Shown: piece after piece, positions 1-36,315 of the stretch | How the letters are laid out: each line of letters opens with the position of its first letter | How positions within the stretch are numbered: the first letter of the stretch is position 1 | Virus record (IMG/VR): IMGVR_UViG_3300023239_000003 | Coordinates: 1 to 36,315 of that record | Reading direction: 5' to 3' (one strand) | DNA: 36,315 nucleotides | Source: a virus | Notes under the pieces: model-generated | Databases searched by the model: none | What the model was told of the DNA's origin: nothing | Seen by the model: the letters and a program-made list of their open reading frames with translations, nothing else | Made by a program: the position numbers and the translations under genes

Positions 1-123
1 ATTACTTTTTAACGCAAAAATTTCTTCTGTTGTCTTTTCTTGTTTAGTGTCAAAACCATAATGATTCTTACCATCATTTTGAAATCTGTCTACTAATACA
101 TACCTGTAAATATAATTGTCTTT
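1..123. repeat. Left copy of 123-bp terminal direct repeat
   Basis: Bases 1-123 are identical to 36193-36315. Both copies lie inside the same small leftward gene, which becomes complete only when the ends are joined. This fits an overlap left by assembling a circular or circularly permuted molecule. A short physical terminal repeat would rarely interrupt a virion gene. Unit genome length is 36,192 bp. Confidence 0.95.
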
Positions 124-5376: not shown

Positions 5377-6648
5377 CTATATAATTGTGTAACTATTATC
5401 TGCTACAACTTGTGGAGCAGTTTGTCTAGTATTTATTTCTTGAAGTCCCACCGCTAGATACCTCATAGCATCCGCTGCGTGTGAACTCCAATCATGTACA
5501 GGCTTTGTTTTAAACATTCTATCTTTATCTACATATCTCCTGTGGTAATGTCTTAACGCATCTATTAACTTTTTGCAATGGTCTGTATCTATGTAACATC
5601 TTGGTAACGTCATTGTGGTTGCGTGTATGCCATCCTCAAGGGGTATTTTTGGAACTACCTTAAATCTTAATCCTAATTGTGTGGCGACCTCTCTCCGGGT
5701 CTTGCCATTGCCAAACTCGGTTACTTCAATGTCGTGTGGTGCAAAGTGATTTTTGTAAACGTAATCTTTGTTGTCTACCATCTTGATGTAGTATGGTAAT
5801 CCTTGACCTCTCTCTTCATGGTAATCAATTATGTTAATGACACTTGCGTTCTGCTGATAGAAGATAATAGCACTATGATCTGCCACACCTAAATCCCATG
5901 CTGTAGAAACTGGTAGTGCAGGATCGTATGGTACTCTAGTTAATTGCTTATTGTCATCCATCTTGCCAATCACATCTCCATATACTGCTCCTTCAATGTT
6001 AGCAATCCAATCACACTCAAATTCCTGTAGGTACTTCTTCTCACCCATCACTTCTCTTGCCTTGACCAACTCTTCTTCATCCACAATCTTAGTGTCTGAT
6101 GCTTTTGCCTTGTAGTTAAACCAATCATCTGCTCCATTAGCGTGTTGGTATAATTCATAGAAGTTGTTGTTCATTCCTGCTGGTGTACCAATAAAGACAC
6201 AGTAGCCTTTACGATCTGATAAAGCCGGTCTAATTATCTCTGGAAACAACCTACTGTTGACATTAGCATACTCATCAATTACACAGCCATCCAAGTAGAT
6301 ACCTCTTAATCCATCTGGTGAATCTGATCCAAGTAAAGTAATCCTAGCACCATTAGGTAAATCAACTCTAAGTTCTGTTTCGTTAAATTTTGTATTGGGT
6401 ATCTTATCAGTAAACTGTTTCATGTAATCCCATGCAATAGACTTTGCTTGTTTGAATGTGGGTGCAAGATAGGCAAATCTAGGGTTCTTTTCTTTGCAAG
6501 TAAGTGCTGATTTAATAAGGTGGTTGATCATGCAGACAGTTTTGCCGAATCTCCTGTGACAAACTAGCACACTCCATCTATGTTTATCAATTTGTTGGTG
6601 TAATAGCTTCTGATGCTTTCTTGGTGTATAGGGGATTTTAATATCCAT
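5377..6648 (-). CDS. terL: Terminase large subunit
   Basis: The 423-residue packaging motor has both expected domains. The ATPase has a Walker A-like CHRRFGKT (30-37), Walker B VIDEY (123-127) and the IGTP coupling motif (153-156). The nuclease (about 245-400) has D252 in WDLG, a PHD segment followed by an Arg-rich stretch, and a late Asp in HDWSSHAADAMRY. It should cut concatemers and drive DNA through the portal. Unusually, the small subunit is not adjacent; the best candidate is at 10868-11401 in another operon. Only two bases separate this gene from the small ORF upstream. Confidence 0.95.
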   Translation of the reverse strand: MDIKIPYTPRKHQKLLHQQIDKHRWSVLVCHRRFGKTVCMINHLIKSALTCKEKNPRFAYLAPTFKQAKSIAWDYMKQFTDKIPNTKFNETELRVDLPNGARITLLGSDSPDGLRGIYLDGCVIDEYANVNSRLFPEIIRPALSDRKGYCVFIGTPAGMNNNFYELYQHANGADDWFNYKAKASDTKIVDEEELVKAREVMGEKKYLQEFECDWIANIEGAVYGDVIGKMDDNKQLTRVPYDPALPVSTAWDLGVADHSAIIFYQQNASVINIIDYHEERGQGLPYYIKMVDNKDYVYKNHFAPHDIEVTEFGNGKTRREVATQLGLRFKVVPKIPLEDGIHATTMTLPRCYIDTDHCKKLIDALRHYHRRYVDKDRMFKTKPVHDWSSHAADAMRYLAVGLQEINTRQTAPQVVADNSYTII

Positions 6649-6650
6649 AT

Positions 6651-6839
6651 CTAGTGTATAGAATTATTCCTATACGCATCATTTGGTATGTAATCAAAGT
6701 CTAGTTTCTTCATAGCAAAGACACTAAATAGCTCTGCTTGTTTAGAAGCAGTAAATCCATAGAACTTCATTATTACATTGTTGCTGCCTTCTTCAATATA
6801 ACAGATTGATTCTACATCTTCTAAGTCAAGGTGATCCAT
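6651..6839 (-). CDS. Small acidic hypothetical protein upstream of terL
   Basis: This 62-residue acidic protein has no recognised family. It is the first gene of the leftward late operon, directly before terL. The ATG at 6839-6837 lacks a clear Shine-Dalgarno site, so the call rests on the tight spacing (two bases), the same strand and ordinary composition. A terminase or packaging accessory role would be a guess from position. Confidence 0.55.
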   Translation of the reverse strand: MDHLDLEDVESICYIEEGSNNVIMKFYGFTASKQAELFSVFAMKKLDFDYIPNDAYRNNSIH

Positions 6840-6893
6840 ATACTACATCTAGTTCATTTGTAAAAAATAGTAAAATAAAAAATTTGGATTAAG

Positions 6894-6902
6894 TGTGGAT
6901 AA
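6894..6902 (-). promoter_or_regulatory. Consensus DnaA box
   Basis: The minus strand reads TTATCCACA, the exact high-affinity DnaA box consensus. It lies in the leader of the late operon, about 55 bases before the first gene. I did not find another perfect copy on reading, though that scan was not exhaustive. It gains weight because the phage encodes a DnaA domain IV protein (16343-16822). Confidence 0.6.
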
Positions 6903-6989
6903 AAGGGGGTGGGTTGTTTTAGGAGAACTGTCTGTGTATGTGTGAAAATGTTCGGTGTATATATAGAGAGAAATCCGTGGGAATATTTT

Positions 6990-7001
6990 GGGGTATACCC
7001 C
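6990..7001. repeat. 12-bp perfect palindrome GGGGTATACCCC
   Basis: A perfect G/C-flanked dyad inside an AT-rich control region, about 90 bases from the DnaA box. With no loop it is better suited to binding a dimeric regulator than to forming a terminator. The binding partner is unknown. Confidence 0.5.
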
Positions 7002-10697: not shown

Positions 10698-10871
10698 ATG
10701 AAAAAATATAAAGTTTATGTATCATTTAGAGAAAGATATGAAGTTGAAGTTGAAGCAAAAGATAGAAAACAAGCCGAAGATATTGCCGTAAATAATACAA
10801 AAGTAAATTTAATTAGTATAGGTGATTTTGATGATGGTTTATGGGTTGATGAAGTTGATGAACTAGATTAA
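10698..10871 (+). CDS. DpnD/PcfM-like small protein
   Basis: The 57-residue protein has two N-terminal strands (KKYKVYVSFRERYEVEVEA, about 2-20) and a helix (DRKQAEDIAVNNTK, about 22-35), an arrangement like the DpnD/PcfM-type C-terminal fold found in small phage and plasmid proteins. An acidic tail follows. AAAAAGGAAACT precedes the ATG. Last gene of the rightward island; its stop codon shares the palindrome TTAA (10868-10871) with the stop of the convergent terminase small subunit gene. Confidence 0.65.
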   Translation: MKKYKVYVSFRERYEVEVEAKDRKQAEDIAVNNTKVNLISIGDFDDGLWVDEVDELD

Positions 10872-11401
10872 CTTTTATTAGGTGTAGGCACATCAACGTC
10901 TGTTGCGTTTACATCTATAATATCGCTATCACTTTCCCAGCTAATAGTCATTTCAGTTTTTTGATCTACTTTCTGGACCTTATTATCTGAATATAAATCA
11001 GTAATTTTACCGGCAATCCATTTAACAAAATCAGCTTTTCTAGTTATCCATAGTATTTGATTAGGGTTTTCAAGTTCTTGATGATTAAATATTTCAAGCA
11101 ATCTATCAATAGAAGTTTGAATACCTAACTTTCTAGCGTCTAATACTTCTTGTTCAATCTCGGGATTTTTTTTTAAGATAGAGTAAAATTTCCCTAAGCT
11201 GATCCCCATTGGGTTTGTGATTTTGGATTCTATACAATGAGTTAATGTATTTCCCTCTACTAATGAATCTAGTATGGTAGGTAGATTTTTCTTTATTGTC
11301 AATTCTAGGTCTAAGTTTTTCTTCATAGTAGGTGTTAAAGGCTTCTTCGGTAAGGTCTTTGAACTGTTTAAGTTTTCTAAGTTGCTTTTTTCTAGTGTCA
11401 T
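10868..11401 (-). CDS. Probable terminase small subunit
   Basis: The open frame gives 177 residues from 11401; a later in-frame ATG near 11326 would also keep the core. A helix-turn-helix-like segment (about 45-80) is followed by EIEQEVLDARKLGIQ (about 81-95) and ITRKADFVKWIAGKITDLYSD (about 118-138). That layout is typical of Sf6-type small terminase subunits, in which a charged helix precedes a W/Y-rich segment and a beta tail. It should recognise phage DNA and regulate TerL. It is separated from terL by the rightward island and overlaps the upstream gene by up to 248 bases in another frame. Confidence 0.62.
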   Translation of the reverse strand: MTLEKSNLENLNSSKTLPKKPLTPTMKKNLDLELTIKKNLPTILDSLVEGNTLTHCIESKITNPMGISLGKFYSILKKNPEIEQEVLDARKLGIQTSIDRLLEIFNHQELENPNQILWITRKADFVKWIAGKITDLYSDNKVQKVDQKTEMTISWESDSDIIDVNATDVDVPTPNKS

Positions 11402-11558
11402 GTGTATAGTTCGGTTTTTGAAATCCTAATATATTCTGAAAGCCATGAAAACGACAGAAGTATTTGTTATTTTTACACAAAAACCCCTTAGCTAAACAAG
11501 GTTTGCCATCACGTCTAAGAGATTGACAGAATACTTTTGATTTAGGTCTACCAGCCAT
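11154..11558 (-). CDS. Cys/His zinc-motif protein, overlapping the terminase small subunit
   Basis: This 134-residue protein starts MAGRPKSKVFCQSLRRDGKP and carries C11, C21, C28, C35 and H38 in a CQSL...CLA...C...CRFHG pattern. It resembles the short HGG-type zinc proteins often found next to small terminase genes. Residues after about 53 are encoded by DNA that also encodes the terminase small subunit N-terminus in the +1 frame. The start overlaps the previous stop (TAATG). Either true overprinting or a frameshift junction could explain this. The zinc segment is the most secure part. Confidence 0.6.
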   Translation of the reverse strand: MAGRPKSKVFCQSLRRDGKPCLAKGFLCKNNKYFCRFHGFQNILGFQKPNYTHDTRKKQLRKLKQFKDLTEEAFNTYYEEKLRPRIDNKEKSTYHTRFISRGKYINSLYRIQNHKPNGDQLREILLYLKKKSRD

Positions 11559-12253
11559 TATTTCTTTGGGTTGCCTTTATAGTCTAAATTATTTCTTTTA
11601 TTAAATTGAACTTTCTCTCTGTATCTAGGATTAGATTGCTTTTTAATTTTAGTCAGCTCATTTATTATCTTTTGTGGGTGAACATAACTTTTAGTATTTT
11701 CAGCAATCAATTCCTCTTTCCTATTTATAGCAAGTTTTACATAGTATGGATTCTTAGTATCCTCTATTAGTTCTTCGGGGGGGAGCTTCGCTAAATGGTC
11801 TATTATAGATTCTTTATCACCTTTATAAGTACCTATTATTTTATCTATATTATTAATGTTTAATGCTTCTACTAATACTGATCTTTTTTTCACATAAGGG
11901 TGATCTAAATTATACATTTTTGATTTAGGAGTGTATAAAATTGATCCATCTGATTCTGATTTTAAGAATATCTCATTAACCTTATAAGATTTACCAGACC
12001 TACCTCGCACAGTAGATATGATGTTTAATTTCTCTAGGGTATCTAAGGTGCGTCTGACAGTTATTCTGGATAGTTTGGTGTCTTTAGCAACAGTTGAGTA
12101 TCTAAGTCCACATTCATAGTTATTCTTTTTCCAAGCATGTTTCATTAAAGATAAAAAGCAATTTAGTGCATGGGATTTTTTCACCCCAGATAGCTTGTCT
12201 AAGTGACCATAAATTTTATAAGTAATATGTAAGAAAGCACGACTATTTTGCAT
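11558..12253 (-). CDS. Winged-helix replication-initiator-like protein
   Basis: The 231-residue protein has an N-terminal winged-helix domain: a helical lead (1-50), the recognition core STVAKDTKLSRITVRRTLDT (about 54-73), and a wing with IISTVRGRSGKSYKV (about 79-93). A variable middle and a very basic C-terminus follow. This resembles phage replication initiators or replisome organisers of the O-protein type. With no phage polymerase or helicase, it is the best candidate for loading host replication enzymes; a transcription regulator is the alternative. Coupled at both ends: 11-base overlap upstream, TAATG downstream. Confidence 0.68.
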   Translation of the reverse strand: MQNSRAFLHITYKIYGHLDKLSGVKKSHALNCFLSLMKHAWKKNNYECGLRYSTVAKDTKLSRITVRRTLDTLEKLNIISTVRGRSGKSYKVNEIFLKSESDGSILYTPKSKMYNLDHPYVKKRSVLVEALNINNIDKIIGTYKGDKESIIDHLAKLPPEELIEDTKNPYYVKLAINRKEELIAENTKSYVHPQKIINELTKIKKQSNPRYREKVQFNKRNNLDYKGNPKK

Positions 12254-13527: not shown

Positions 13528-13548
13528 GTAATTTTTTTAGTTTATAAG
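13521..13548 (+). promoter_or_regulatory. Strong rightward early promoter
   Basis: TTGACA (13521-13526) and TATAAG (13543-13548) are 16 bases apart, close to the sigma70 consensus and the best promoter I found in the window. Transcription would begin near 13555, giving a short leader to the exonuclease gene at 13572. Confidence 0.75.
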
Positions 13549-13571
13549 TGTATAAAAAAACAAAGGAACTT

Positions 13572-14504
13572 ATGAAAACTCAAGAAGAATTAATACAAGA
13601 AGCATTTGCTTTTTATAATGGTGGTAAAGGATTAGATCATTGGTCTTATTCTTCTACATCATCACCATTCTCAAAAAATATAATTAACTATTCTTTTCCA
13701 CAAGAGGTGAGAAGAAAATTTGTATTTAGATACAAACCATCATTTGGAAATTTAGTTAATAACACAGTTCAAAAAATGATAGCTGATGTTATCTACACAA
13801 CTAAAACAATAAAACAAACTGCGTTCACAAAAGAAGAAAGAGATTACAAAACAGCATTTGAAAGTGAATTAAAAATTATAAAAGATAAACCACCGGTAGA
13901 CGCAAAGGATGAGTTTGCCAGAGAAGAAATGCAACAGTACGCACACGATTGTATTGGTGTAACTAAAAAGGTTGTGCAAGATATAATTGGTAAAGATCAA
14001 TTAGTTTGTGAGAGGTATGTTGAGCATAAAGAAATGACTATGCTTAAACCTATTATTGGTAGAATTGATTATGAAAGCAAAACTAAATTTATAGAATTAA
14101 AAACTAAGCCACCTAATATTAGAAAAGTTAAAAACAAAGAGGAATGGAAAATGAGTTCGCAACCAATTCCAACTGAGCCTACGTTTGATAACTTAACACA
14201 GACTTCGTTTTACTATATGTGTACTAAGAAAATACCATTCTTAGTTTATGTCAATGACAAAGAACATATTGTGTTTGACCAATCACATGAGTTAATGAAG
14301 AAAGACCATCTGGAACACCTTTACTTTAAAATGTGTGAGAAGATTTTATTCTGGGAAAAGATGATTATGTTTTGCAAGGGTAATATACAAGAACTTGCAA
14401 TGATGTGTGAAGCACCCGATCTAAGTCATCCATTTTATTATAAAGACTTAGCACCAGAACAACTACAATTAATAACTAACCTATGGGGAATGAAACATGA
14501 GTAA
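13572..14504 (+). CDS. PD-(D/E)XK exonuclease (RecB/Cas4-like)
   Basis: ATG 13572 with AAAGGAAC upstream replaces an upstream ATG at 13548 that overlaps the promoter. The 310-residue protein has the RecB-family nuclease motifs: GRID (163-166), ELK (175-177) and Q-x-x-x-Y (Q210, Y214), with an N-terminal helical domain. It lies two genes upstream of an ERF annealase, as in phage exonuclease/annealase pairs, so it probably resects double-strand ends for recombination. Such nucleases may also degrade host DNA. It overlaps the lipoprotein gene by 8 bases. Confidence 0.85.
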   Translation: MKTQEELIQEAFAFYNGGKGLDHWSYSSTSSPFSKNIINYSFPQEVRRKFVFRYKPSFGNLVNNTVQKMIADVIYTTKTIKQTAFTKEERDYKTAFESELKIIKDKPPVDAKDEFAREEMQQYAHDCIGVTKKVVQDIIGKDQLVCERYVEHKEMTMLKPIIGRIDYESKTKFIELKTKPPNIRKVKNKEEWKMSSQPIPTEPTFDNLTQTSFYYMCTKKIPFLVYVNDKEHIVFDQSHELMKKDHLEHLYFKMCEKILFWEKMIMFCKGNIQELAMMCEAPDLSHPFYYKDLAPEQLQLITNLWGMKHE

Positions 14505-14691
14505 AATAATACTATGTTTATCTGTAATATTTTTATTAGTAGGATGTGCAAACAAGCAAGTCCTAGTTGGTAAAAAATGTTTTATAGATAAAGAAAACAA
14601 TACAACTACCATCACTAAATCTTATATTTGGTTTGTCGACAAAGATAAAGTTTGGACCAATCAATTAAAAAAAGAAAACTGTAATAAATAA
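14497..14691 (+). CDS. Small predicted lipoprotein
   Basis: The 64-residue protein has a signal peptide (MSKIILCLSVIFLLVG) ending in a lipobox L-V-G-C with the acylated Cys at position 17. The mature part is about 48 residues, polar and Lys/Asn/Thr-rich with two further Cys. It sits in the early operon between exonuclease and annealase genes rather than in the lysis cluster. An early phage lipoprotein could block superinfection at the envelope, but that is inference. Confidence 0.7.
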   Translation: MSKIILCLSVIFLLVGCANKQVLVGKKCFIDKENNTTTITKSYIWFVDKDKVWTNQLKKENCNK

Positions 14692-14704
14692 CAAAGGGAA
14701 AACT

Positions 14705-15340
14705 ATGAAAAAAAATATATACCAAAAATTGCACTCGGCTTGTATTGAAGCTGGTAGTGTTAAGAAAGCAGAAAAAGTAAAAGGGATGCACTTTAATCCT
14801 TTATTGCATGACGCAGTACAAGAAACTGCAACGCAATCATTATTGAATAATGGATTGTACCCAACTTGTAGCTACCTAACAGAAATAACAGATAAGAATA
14901 TGGTCATGGTTGTATGTACTATGAAAGTACATGACGTTGATGATCCAACACAATTTGTTTTAGTAGATGGTTGCTCGGCAATGGGTGGATTAGATAAGTT
15001 TGGTACGGGTCAAGCTATGTCATACTCAAGAAAGTATGCGTTCTTAAATCTGTTAAATCTTAAAACCGGTATTAAAGATGAGGATGGTTATGAAGCCAAA
15101 CCCTTTAAACAAAATTCTGTAGAGAAATCTGCAGAGCCTACATACATGGATGAATCTGTGAATGTAGATGAAATAAAAGATGAACTTAAAAATGCTCAAT
15201 CTATACAAGGTTTAAATCTTGCTAAGAATAAACATAGAGATAGTGTTCATTTTTTACTTAAAAACAATTTACGAGCCTACAGACAAGTCACCGACATTGC
15301 TGAATCTCGTGAATTACAATTAAATAATGTTCAACAATAG
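14705..15340 (+). CDS. erf: ERF-family single-strand annealing protein
   Basis: The 211-residue protein matches the ERF superfamily: GTGQAMSYSRKYAF (100-113) followed by TGIKDEDG (121-128). An N-terminal helix-strand core precedes these, and a helical C-terminal tail (about 145-211) follows. ERF proteins anneal complementary single strands and drive phage genome circularisation and recombination. Paired with the upstream exonuclease it forms a two-part recombination module. AAAGGGAAAACT precedes the ATG. Confidence 0.9.
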   Translation: MKKNIYQKLHSACIEAGSVKKAEKVKGMHFNPLLHDAVQETATQSLLNNGLYPTCSYLTEITDKNMVMVVCTMKVHDVDDPTQFVLVDGCSAMGGLDKFGTGQAMSYSRKYAFLNLLNLKTGIKDEDGYEAKPFKQNSVEKSAEPTYMDESVNVDEIKDELKNAQSIQGLNLAKNKHRDSVHFLLKNNLRAYRQVTDIAESRELQLNNVQQ

Positions 15341-15364
15341 TTGAAGATAACAAAAGGAAATAAT

Positions 15365-15667
15365 ATGAATGAAGAAGTAATATGGGTAAATTTAGTACCC
15401 AACGAAAACAAAACAGCAGACAATCATCCAGATTGGGTAGCACCTGCAAATCCTAACGCACCAGAGGGAAAGAAATGGACCATTGGTACGAAGATTGGAG
15501 AGACTTGGCACAATCCTGCAGGATGGAACGCAAAGGATGATGCTGGTAATTTAACTGGAGCAATCAAAATTAAATTGACACCCAATAATTATGATGCTTC
15601 ACAAGCTGGAAATAAGGGGTTTCCAAAAGCACCTATTTCTGGTAATAAACCAGAATACAAGTTTTAA
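15365..15667 (+). CDS. Hypothetical early protein downstream of erf
   Basis: ATG 15365 has AAAAGGA upstream; an in-frame TTG at 15341 lacks one. The 100-residue protein is rich in Asn, Pro, Trp and Lys, probably beta-rich, with KLTPNNYDA and a C-terminal FPKAPISGNKPEYKF. It follows erf directly. A single-strand DNA-binding or annealase-partner role would fit the position, but no OB-fold signature is visible, so it stays unassigned. Confidence 0.65.
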   Translation: MNEEVIWVNLVPNENKTADNHPDWVAPANPNAPEGKKWTIGTKIGETWHNPAGWNAKDDAGNLTGAIKIKLTPNNYDASQAGNKGFPKAPISGNKPEYKF

Positions 15668-15691
15668 TTAAAAAGAAAATTTGTATAGTCT

Positions 15692-15740
15692 TAGAGGGGT
15701 TTTTTTCTTTCTTAGTTCCCTTCGTTAGTTTTCCCCTCTA
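15692..15740 (+). terminator. Long-loop hairpin after the recombination genes
   Basis: An 8-bp perfect inverted repeat (TAGAGGGG at 15692-15699, CCCCTCTA at 15733-15740) encloses a 33-base pyrimidine-rich loop that begins with seven T residues. It lies 25 bases past the stop at 15667. The T-run is inside the loop, not after the stem, so this is not a standard terminator. It resembles the hairpin at 172-203 in its G5/C5-type stem. Confidence 0.5.
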
Positions 15741-15756
15741 GGACATAAAAAAAAAT

Positions 15757-15972
15757 ATGACCGATACAATCAAACAGCCAAAGCATTATATCGCTAACGC
15801 AATAGAGCCTATTGATTTTATTATTGCCAACAAATTAAATTTTTGTGAAGGGAATGTTGTGAAGTATATATCTCGTTGGAGATTAAAAAACGGAGTGGAA
15901 GATTTAAAAAAAGCCAAACAATACATAGATTTTTTAATCGAAAAAGAGGTTGCCAAAAAGGATAAATCATGA
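15757..15972 (+). CDS. DUF3310 family protein
   Basis: The 71-residue protein has the DUF3310 hallmarks: KQPKHYI near the start, EPIDFI, then NVVKYISRWRLKNGVEDLKKA (about 28-48) and a Tyr/Leu-rich C-terminal helix. The family is common in phages and sometimes labelled nucleotide kinase, but the activity is unproven and no P-loop is present. The ribosome site is weak. It overlaps the next gene by 4 bases (ATGA type). Confidence 0.88.
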   Translation: MTDTIKQPKHYIANAIEPIDFIIANKLNFCEGNVVKYISRWRLKNGVEDLKKAKQYIDFLIEKEVAKKDKS

Positions 15973-16208
15973 CAAAATACACAAGAATCAAAAACGGAGA
16001 GTGTAGTTTTCAAATTACCGAAGTGTTTGATTCAGCAGAAAAGGCTGCAAATCCTTCCAATGATGGGAGTAATGCAGAAGTAAAAATTGAGAATATTAAA
16101 CTCGATTTTACAACAGTGAAAAAGGAGCATGATGGAAGAGATCAAAGTGCGTCTGCAGAAGCTAAGAGACTTACAGGAAAAGAAACATCAGAAGTTCTTG
16201 GAAAGTAA
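15969..16208 (+). CDS. Small hypothetical protein
   Basis: A 79-residue protein starting in an ATGA overlap with the DUF3310 gene, preceded by AAGGA. Soluble, Lys/Glu/Ser-rich, without recognised motif. Its last 77 bases overlap the following small coiled-coil gene in another frame. Function unknown. Confidence 0.55.
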   Translation: MTKYTRIKNGECSFQITEVFDSAEKAANPSNDGSNAEVKIENIKLDFTTVKKEHDGRDQSASAEAKRLTGKETSEVLGK

Positions 16209-16342: not shown

Positions 16343-16822
16343 ATGACTAAAAATACAAGATTCAATGAGATTAAACTTGCAATGAGAGCCGGTCATTACG
16401 CAAATCTAAATAAAAGAGAAGAGAAAATATACAAGAACGCATTTGTCAATGGTTATAAGTTAGCCAAAAAACATTTAAAACAAAATGAATATGACCTTGT
16501 TAAGATTGTAGGTTATTCTTTTTCATCACCACAAAAAGCAACCATAGATAATATTATTGATTATATTTGTAAGCGATATGAAGTTTCTAAAATAGAATTG
16601 CTTGGCAAGAAAAGAACTTTAGATATTGTAAGATCAAGAAACATTATTCATAATTTATTAAATGAAAAATATAAAATGAATCTAACAAATATTGGTAGGT
16701 ACTTTAAGCAAGATCATACCACAGTATTACATTCAATAAAAATGAAAGCTAACAAGAAAAGATATTGGTCAGAGGAGCAAACTATATGGCAAGAGTTTCA
16801 AGAGTTAAAAGAGGTGTTGTAG
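16343..16822 (+). CDS. Stand-alone DnaA domain IV (DnaA-box-binding) protein
   Basis: The 159-residue protein has an N-terminal helical region with no ATPase (1-60). Residues about 66-138 then match DnaA domain IV: ELLGKKRTLDIVRSRNIIHN (85-104) and NLTNIGRYFKQDHTTVLHSI (113-132), the bacterial DnaA signature. D124-H125-T126 and R99 correspond to E. coli residues that read the DnaA box. Lacking Walker motifs, it cannot form the ATP-DnaA filament alone. It may bind the box at 6894-6902, recruit host DnaA or compete with it at the host origin. GAGGGG precedes the ATG; the coding region overlaps the next gene by 37 bases. Confidence 0.9.
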   Translation: MTKNTRFNEIKLAMRAGHYANLNKREEKIYKNAFVNGYKLAKKHLKQNEYDLVKIVGYSFSSPQKATIDNIIDYICKRYEVSKIELLGKKRTLDIVRSRNIIHNLLNEKYKMNLTNIGRYFKQDHTTVLHSIKMKANKKRYWSEEQTIWQEFQELKEVL

Positions 16823-36156: not shown

Positions 36157-36315
36157 TTACTTCCTTATTATATATTTACGTCTGATTTGTCTATTACTTT
36201 TTAACGCAAAAATTTCTTCTGTTGTCTTTTCTTGTTTAGTGTCAAAACCATAATGATTCTTACCATCATTTTGAAATCTGTCTACTAATACATACCTGTA
36301 AATATAATTGTCTTT
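36157..36315 (-). CDS. Small virion-region protein, C-terminal part (gene crosses the joint)
   Basis: This end carries residues 15-66 of the gene that starts at 165 at the other end; the stop TAA is at 36159-36157. The C-terminus is very basic (ALKSNRQIRRKYIIRK), compatible with contacts to DNA or to the portal. The part from 36193 to 36315 duplicates 1-123. Confidence 0.7.
   Translation of the reverse strand, partial: KDNYIYRYVLVDRFQNDGKNHYGFDTKQEKTTEEIFALKSNRQIRRKYIIRK
36193..36315. repeat. Right copy of 123-bp terminal direct repeat
   Basis: Identical to bases 1-123. Joining the copies restores an uninterrupted 66-codon gene, which supports a circular or terminally redundant molecule cut at an arbitrary point. 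Confidence 0.95.

Follow-up and report, generated by a model that had tools for sequence, protein, structure and literature searches.

Bacterial DnaA is both an activator and a repressor of transcription (PMC8203912). In phage lambda, protection by DnaA of boxes downstream of a phage promoter is reported (cited in PMC3985674), and YfdR, a protein of an E. coli prophage, is reported to bind DnaA directly (PMC4776307). Among known pelagiphage groups, the HTVC010P-type phages are reported to rank second in abundance (PMC12753301), and Skadi-1 of the same group has neither an RNA nor a DNA polymerase of its own (PMC10504331), which raises the question of how gene timing is achieved in these phages. 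The named protein and the named 9-bp site described below make that question testable.

The stretch of DNA analysed here (the window, 36,315 nucleotides) is a complete, terminally redundant genome of an HTVC010P-type pelagiphage. Completeness and terminal redundancy follow from an exact 123-bp terminal repeat (window 1-123 = 36193-36315), and the best relatives are HTVC010P-type pelagiphages including HTVC034P, HTVC203P, HTVC010P, Skadi and Greip. The host group is the SAR11 bacteria of the ocean. Features of the window are collected in Table 1.

Table 1. Positions of the features discussed, in window coordinates unless residues are given
Feature	Position	Strand	Remark
DnaA domain IV protein gene	16343..16822	+	ATG start, 159 aa
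Domain IV part of the 159-aa protein	~residues 64-139		
Middle operon, with the DnaA domain IV gene as its last gene	13548..16208	+	nuclease-like gene by position in relatives
ERF single-strand annealing protein	14705-15340	+	middle operon
DUF3310 gene	15757-15972	+	middle operon
Winged-helix protein	11558..12253	-	weak match to phrog_270 (replication initiation proteins)
Palindrome GGGGTATACCCC, perfect	6990..7001	.	upstream of the TATATATACA block
TATATATACA block (TATATATACATGGGA in relatives)	6956..6965	-	putative late promoter -10
DnaA box TTATCCACA in the late-operon leader	6894..6902	-	place and orientation kept across relatives
CTAGATGTAGTATATG block, start of the first late gene	6837..6852	-	strongly conserved
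First late gene, 62 aa, adjoining the terminase large subunit	6651..6839	-	no family match
Terminase large subunit, gene 2 of the late operon	5377..6648	-	

A DnaA domain IV that stands alone

The 159-aa protein fits DnaA domain IV by profile, by modelled fold and by contact residues, from which binding to DnaA boxes is predicted. It matches PF08299 (Bac_DnaA_C) over residues 68-133 with an E value of 4.9e-18 and 65.4 bits against the Pfam cut-off of 31.5, and a phmmer search of the PDB pairs it with E. coli DnaA domain IV (1j1v, E 3.9e-7). The AlphaFold2 model, for which an alignment of 41 sequences from the window and from viral contigs served as input, has a mean pLDDT of ~89-94 over residues 61-130. 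When this model was compared with known structures by VIA-align, 1j1v gave Z 12.3 (2.3 A over 91 residues) and 3pvp of M. tuberculosis gave Z 12.2; as a group, the domain IV structures of E. coli, M. tuberculosis, Aquifex and B. subtilis reached Z 11-12, and the next unrelated structures ~6. In the alignment to 1j1v, phage R91 is the equivalent of R399, and D124-H125-T126-T127 are the equivalents of D433-H434-T435-T436. An earlier note, made from the letters alone, had claimed a DnaA-box recognition domain with the DHT triad and the R399-equivalent arginine, and had named a structural comparison with E. coli DnaA domain IV as one check; profile, residues and fold all bear this out, and the free DnaA-box binder that it foresaw is, as a prediction, well supported by sequence and modelled fold.

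Over ~170 relatives, the equivalents of K397, R405, R407, D433, H434, T435 and T436 are invariant, and the equivalent of R399 is R or K. Two positions have changed throughout the group: P423 is replaced by T or S (rarely G), and R432 is Q in all of the relatives, which also have one residue fewer immediately ahead of the recognition helix.

The rest of DnaA was looked for by family model scans. Only the last ~95 positions of the NCBIfam DnaA models match the protein, at 64 bits against cut-offs of at least 344, no Walker or AAA+ match was obtained in the 159 aa, and no match to DnaA domain I or an N-terminal family appeared at E values up to 1. Judged from its sequence, the protein is not a full DnaA initiator, with neither an AAA+ domain with Walker motifs nor domain I matched, and the absence of Walker motifs and domain III asserted by the earlier note agrees with this. 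No defence-family match was found.

Outside the domain IV core, the N-terminus is modelled as a helix with an end of low confidence. The N-terminal helix (residues 24-47) carries invariant Y30, F34 and G37, and the C-terminal tail (residues 142-151) carries invariant W142 and W149; both are possible protein contact surfaces. A weak match links residues 39-134 to NF004686 (PRK06030), a model of 151 residues for a 'hypothetical protein', and suggests that comparably built short proteins exist in cells or prophages.

Within a phage group that has been well sampled, the gene belongs to the core set. It is present in 10 of the 10 isolate genomes checked and closes the nuclease/ERF operon in all 11 genomes (the window and the isolates), relatives are encoded on more than 500 viral-contig stretches, and other marine and soil phages have stand-alone domain IV genes of their own. 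In most isolates the depositors named it 'DNA replication initiation (DnaA)', 'DnaA-like' or 'Bac_DnaA_C domain-containing'. As it occurs in all 10 isolates and is mostly annotated already, the gene itself is no discovery, and the rarity implied by the title of the earlier note was overstated. No additional gene resembling DnaA domain IV was found in six SAR11 genomes, which contain full-length DnaA alone.

A conserved DnaA box ahead of the late genes

What is new is a DnaA box at a conserved place in the late-operon leader, a site unmentioned in one published paper on the group (PMC10504331). The box sits in the intergenic leader and shares its strand with the late genes. Exact TTATNCACA occurs at 17 sites in the 11 genomes scanned, and six of these sites are at the late-leader position, so that six of the 11 genomes have the exact box there, in the same place and the same orientation; the other five carry TTATACAAA or TTATCAACA at this site. 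No second conserved box site was found among the 11 genomes, and boxes directly upstream or downstream of the DnaA domain IV gene, as in autoregulation, are essentially absent. Two other candidates were rejected: clusters of 3-4 one-mismatch boxes do occur elsewhere, but their location differs from genome to genome, and the weak boxes with one mismatch that 9 of the 11 genomes have close to the nuclease gene are inconsistent in position and orientation.

The first late gene was used as the anchor for locating the leader in relatives, and leaders of viral contigs were gathered through an adjacent 16-mer, which does not include the box, and through the DnaA domain IV gene. The 76 unique leaders were reduced to 34 dissimilar ones, of which 12 have no mismatch to TTATNCACA, 16 have one, five have two and one has three; because the sequences share ancestry, these counts measure conservation and not independent events. 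In random 55-bp windows of the same genomes, 0.1% contained an exact box, 2.8% a box with one mismatch and 28% one with two mismatches. Upon reshuffling the motif 1000 times, the true motif alone reached 28 leaders, and the runner-up reached 20. Position 5 is the free position of the DnaA box, and it is also the least conserved position within the site; its low conservation is partly independent and partly built in, as the scoring leaves this position free.

The box precedes the CTAGATGTAGTATATG block by ~42-54 bp; its spacing to the TATATATACA block is less constant, and in the leaders the box is followed by a T-rich tract. Several relatives have looser palindromes at the position of GGGGTATACCCC, which is a possible operator for a further phage regulator. 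The CTAGATGTAGTATATG block is conserved at the DNA level in dozens of contigs, beyond what is expected for a coding start. A search of the leader for a sigma-70 consensus promoter gave nothing beyond chance.

The conserved 9-mer could instead belong to a promoter, a leader or a packaging signal and resemble a DnaA box by accident: conservation in other blocks of this leader is as high or higher, and TATNCA overlaps a -10-like string. However, the conservation spans nine positions and is lowest at position 5, as is usual in a DnaA box, the motif outscores every composition-matched permutation tried, the same genomes encode the domain IV protein, and no Rfam family or known RNA element was found in the window. 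We therefore consider an accidental likeness very improbable.

Variation of the box bears on the question of which protein reads it. Many leaders have non-canonical boxes (TTATNAACA, TTATNCAAA, TTATTCAAC), and phages of one host, HTCC1062, carry differing boxes, which would follow if the box were read by the phage's own protein. Asn stands before QDHTT in the proteins of 13 of 17 variant-box leaders and of six of 18 other leaders (Fisher p 0.018, confounded by clade), and the cognate protein of the TTATTAACA leader is of the Asn-QDHTT type. Together, the variation within one host and the Asn-QDHTT association weakly hint at the phage protein as the reader. If host DnaA were the ligand instead, late expression would sense the replication state of the host, and the phage protein would compete for the box or have its targets elsewhere. 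Host DnaA has canonical recognition residues which exact boxes should suit, and host DnaA at lambda DNA provides a precedent (PMC3985674); on the other hand, canonical DnaA should bind the many non-canonical boxes poorly, and we hold host DnaA to be an improbable ligand.

A possible middle-to-late switch and its alternatives

Since a matching box is kept before the virus's own late genes, the protein probably acts on the virus's own DNA rather than only on that of the host. One conserved site before the late operon, together with a gene that ends the middle operon, makes a switch between the two the simplest reading, and we tentatively propose, at somewhat less than an even chance, that the phage has domesticated DnaA domain IV to act as a middle-to-late switch by binding the box in the leader of its own late operon. 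The protein would be made as the last product of the middle operon, attach to the box where the early/late divergent region faces the late genes, and alter late transcription by host RNA polymerase; a domain IV devoid of the DnaA motor would be able solely to bind DNA, and then to mark or to block it. Among the three roles offered by the earlier note, regulation at DnaA boxes is the one that gains specific support from this box, although the regulation itself is what we infer.

In this switch the phage protein, rather than host DnaA, is presumed to occupy the box, the divergent region would hold the late promoter, and the effect could be activation or repression. With the TATATATACA block as the promoter, the box would be downstream of the start, which fits repression or an unusual kind of activation; the CTAGATGTAGTATATG block may instead be the -10, in which case the box would lie upstream of the start. 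Against a switch, one site is little for a regulator to act through, two mismatches occur in five of the 34 leaders and three in one, with the DnaA domain IV gene still there in some of these phages, and host DnaA, having canonical contact residues, should also bind the exact boxes.

The divergent early/late region could also be the phage replication origin, which the protein would mark through the box, helping to load host replication proteins; host DnaA, or DnaB with a phage O-like initiator, would be loaded, and the T-rich tract would be the unwinding element. In family scans that covered all but some small ORFs of the window, no polymerase, helicase or primase of the phage turned up; as to the polymerase, this is consistent with the description of Skadi-1 (PMC10504331) and with the claim of the earlier note that this phage lacks one of its own. 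The negative scans would suit an origin, as would the T-rich tract adjoining the box, the cumulative GC-skew minimum, which in six genomes coincides with the box or lies close to it, and the names in isolate records that call the gene DNA replication initiation. GC skew was dropped as an origin marker because it is confounded by gene direction: skew maxima track gene direction, and the minimum equally follows from divergent transcription. Moreover, only one box is conserved, neither a cluster of boxes that keeps its place nor iterons were found, the protein lacks an AAA+ domain for opening DNA, and a separate candidate for an O-like initiator is encoded, namely the winged-helix protein of Table 1, whose assignment comes from its weak family match. 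Relatives of this winged-helix gene are annotated 'putative transcriptional regulator', the gene contains no iterons in the window, and a weak match to a terminase small subunit (window 10868-11401) lies beside it, far from the large subunit. Recruitment of host DnaA to an origin, possible at the same site, is disfavoured as well: DnaA molecules contact each other through domains I and III, and the phage protein has neither. On balance we regard the origin as an unlikely alternative that nevertheless deserves weight.

The protein could instead occupy DnaA boxes at the host oriC and block host initiation, which would free nucleotides and the replisome for the phage. At the core positions its contact residues are the same as those of host DnaA, and YfdR indicates that initiation can be targeted by prophage genes (PMC4776307). 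In six SAR11 genomes no exact direct pair of DnaA boxes within 30 bp was found, and TTATNCACA was no commoner than its reversed control; thus, the SAR11 oriC is not visible by canonical boxes. Action at the host oriC leaves the conserved box in the phage genome unexplained, and we consider it distinctly unlikely.

Returning to the middle-to-late switch, its wider form, in which one of the most abundant groups of ocean phages uses the DNA-binding end of DnaA as a late-gene transcription factor at a single box before its structural operon, is somewhat less likely than not. If it holds, the DNA-reading domain of a replication initiator would have been reused, without its motor, as a viral regulator.

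Comparison with known systems

The closest structural parallels are the bacterial domain IV structures of E. coli (1j1v) and M. tuberculosis (3pvp), with which the phage protein shares the like fold, the arginine of the basic loop and the DHTT recognition helix, and its predicted box is likewise TTATNCACA. In contrast to bacterial DnaA, the phage protein lacks domain I and AAA+ domain III, has T/S for P423, Q for R432 and one residue fewer before the recognition helix, and brings its own N-terminal helix and Trp-containing C-terminal tail.

Within the phage group, HTVC034P gp20 ('DNA replication initiation (DnaA)') and the 'DnaA-like' protein of Skadi are products of the same gene in the same place, with 36-61% identity. 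Stand-alone domain IV proteins of 145-174 aa are also encoded by Olleya phage Harreka_1 (gp24), Leeuwenhoekiella phage Arctus_1 and Bradyrhizobium phage ppBjS10J-1; they leave no room for an AAA+ domain and their genes lie among non-structural genes, as here, whereas their identity of ~31-36% is confined to the domain and their genome layout is unrelated. Phage lambda, on whose promoters and origin host DnaA acts, likewise has DnaA boxes near a phage promoter, but there the protein is the full-length DnaA of the host, whereas the pelagiphage brings the binding domain itself.
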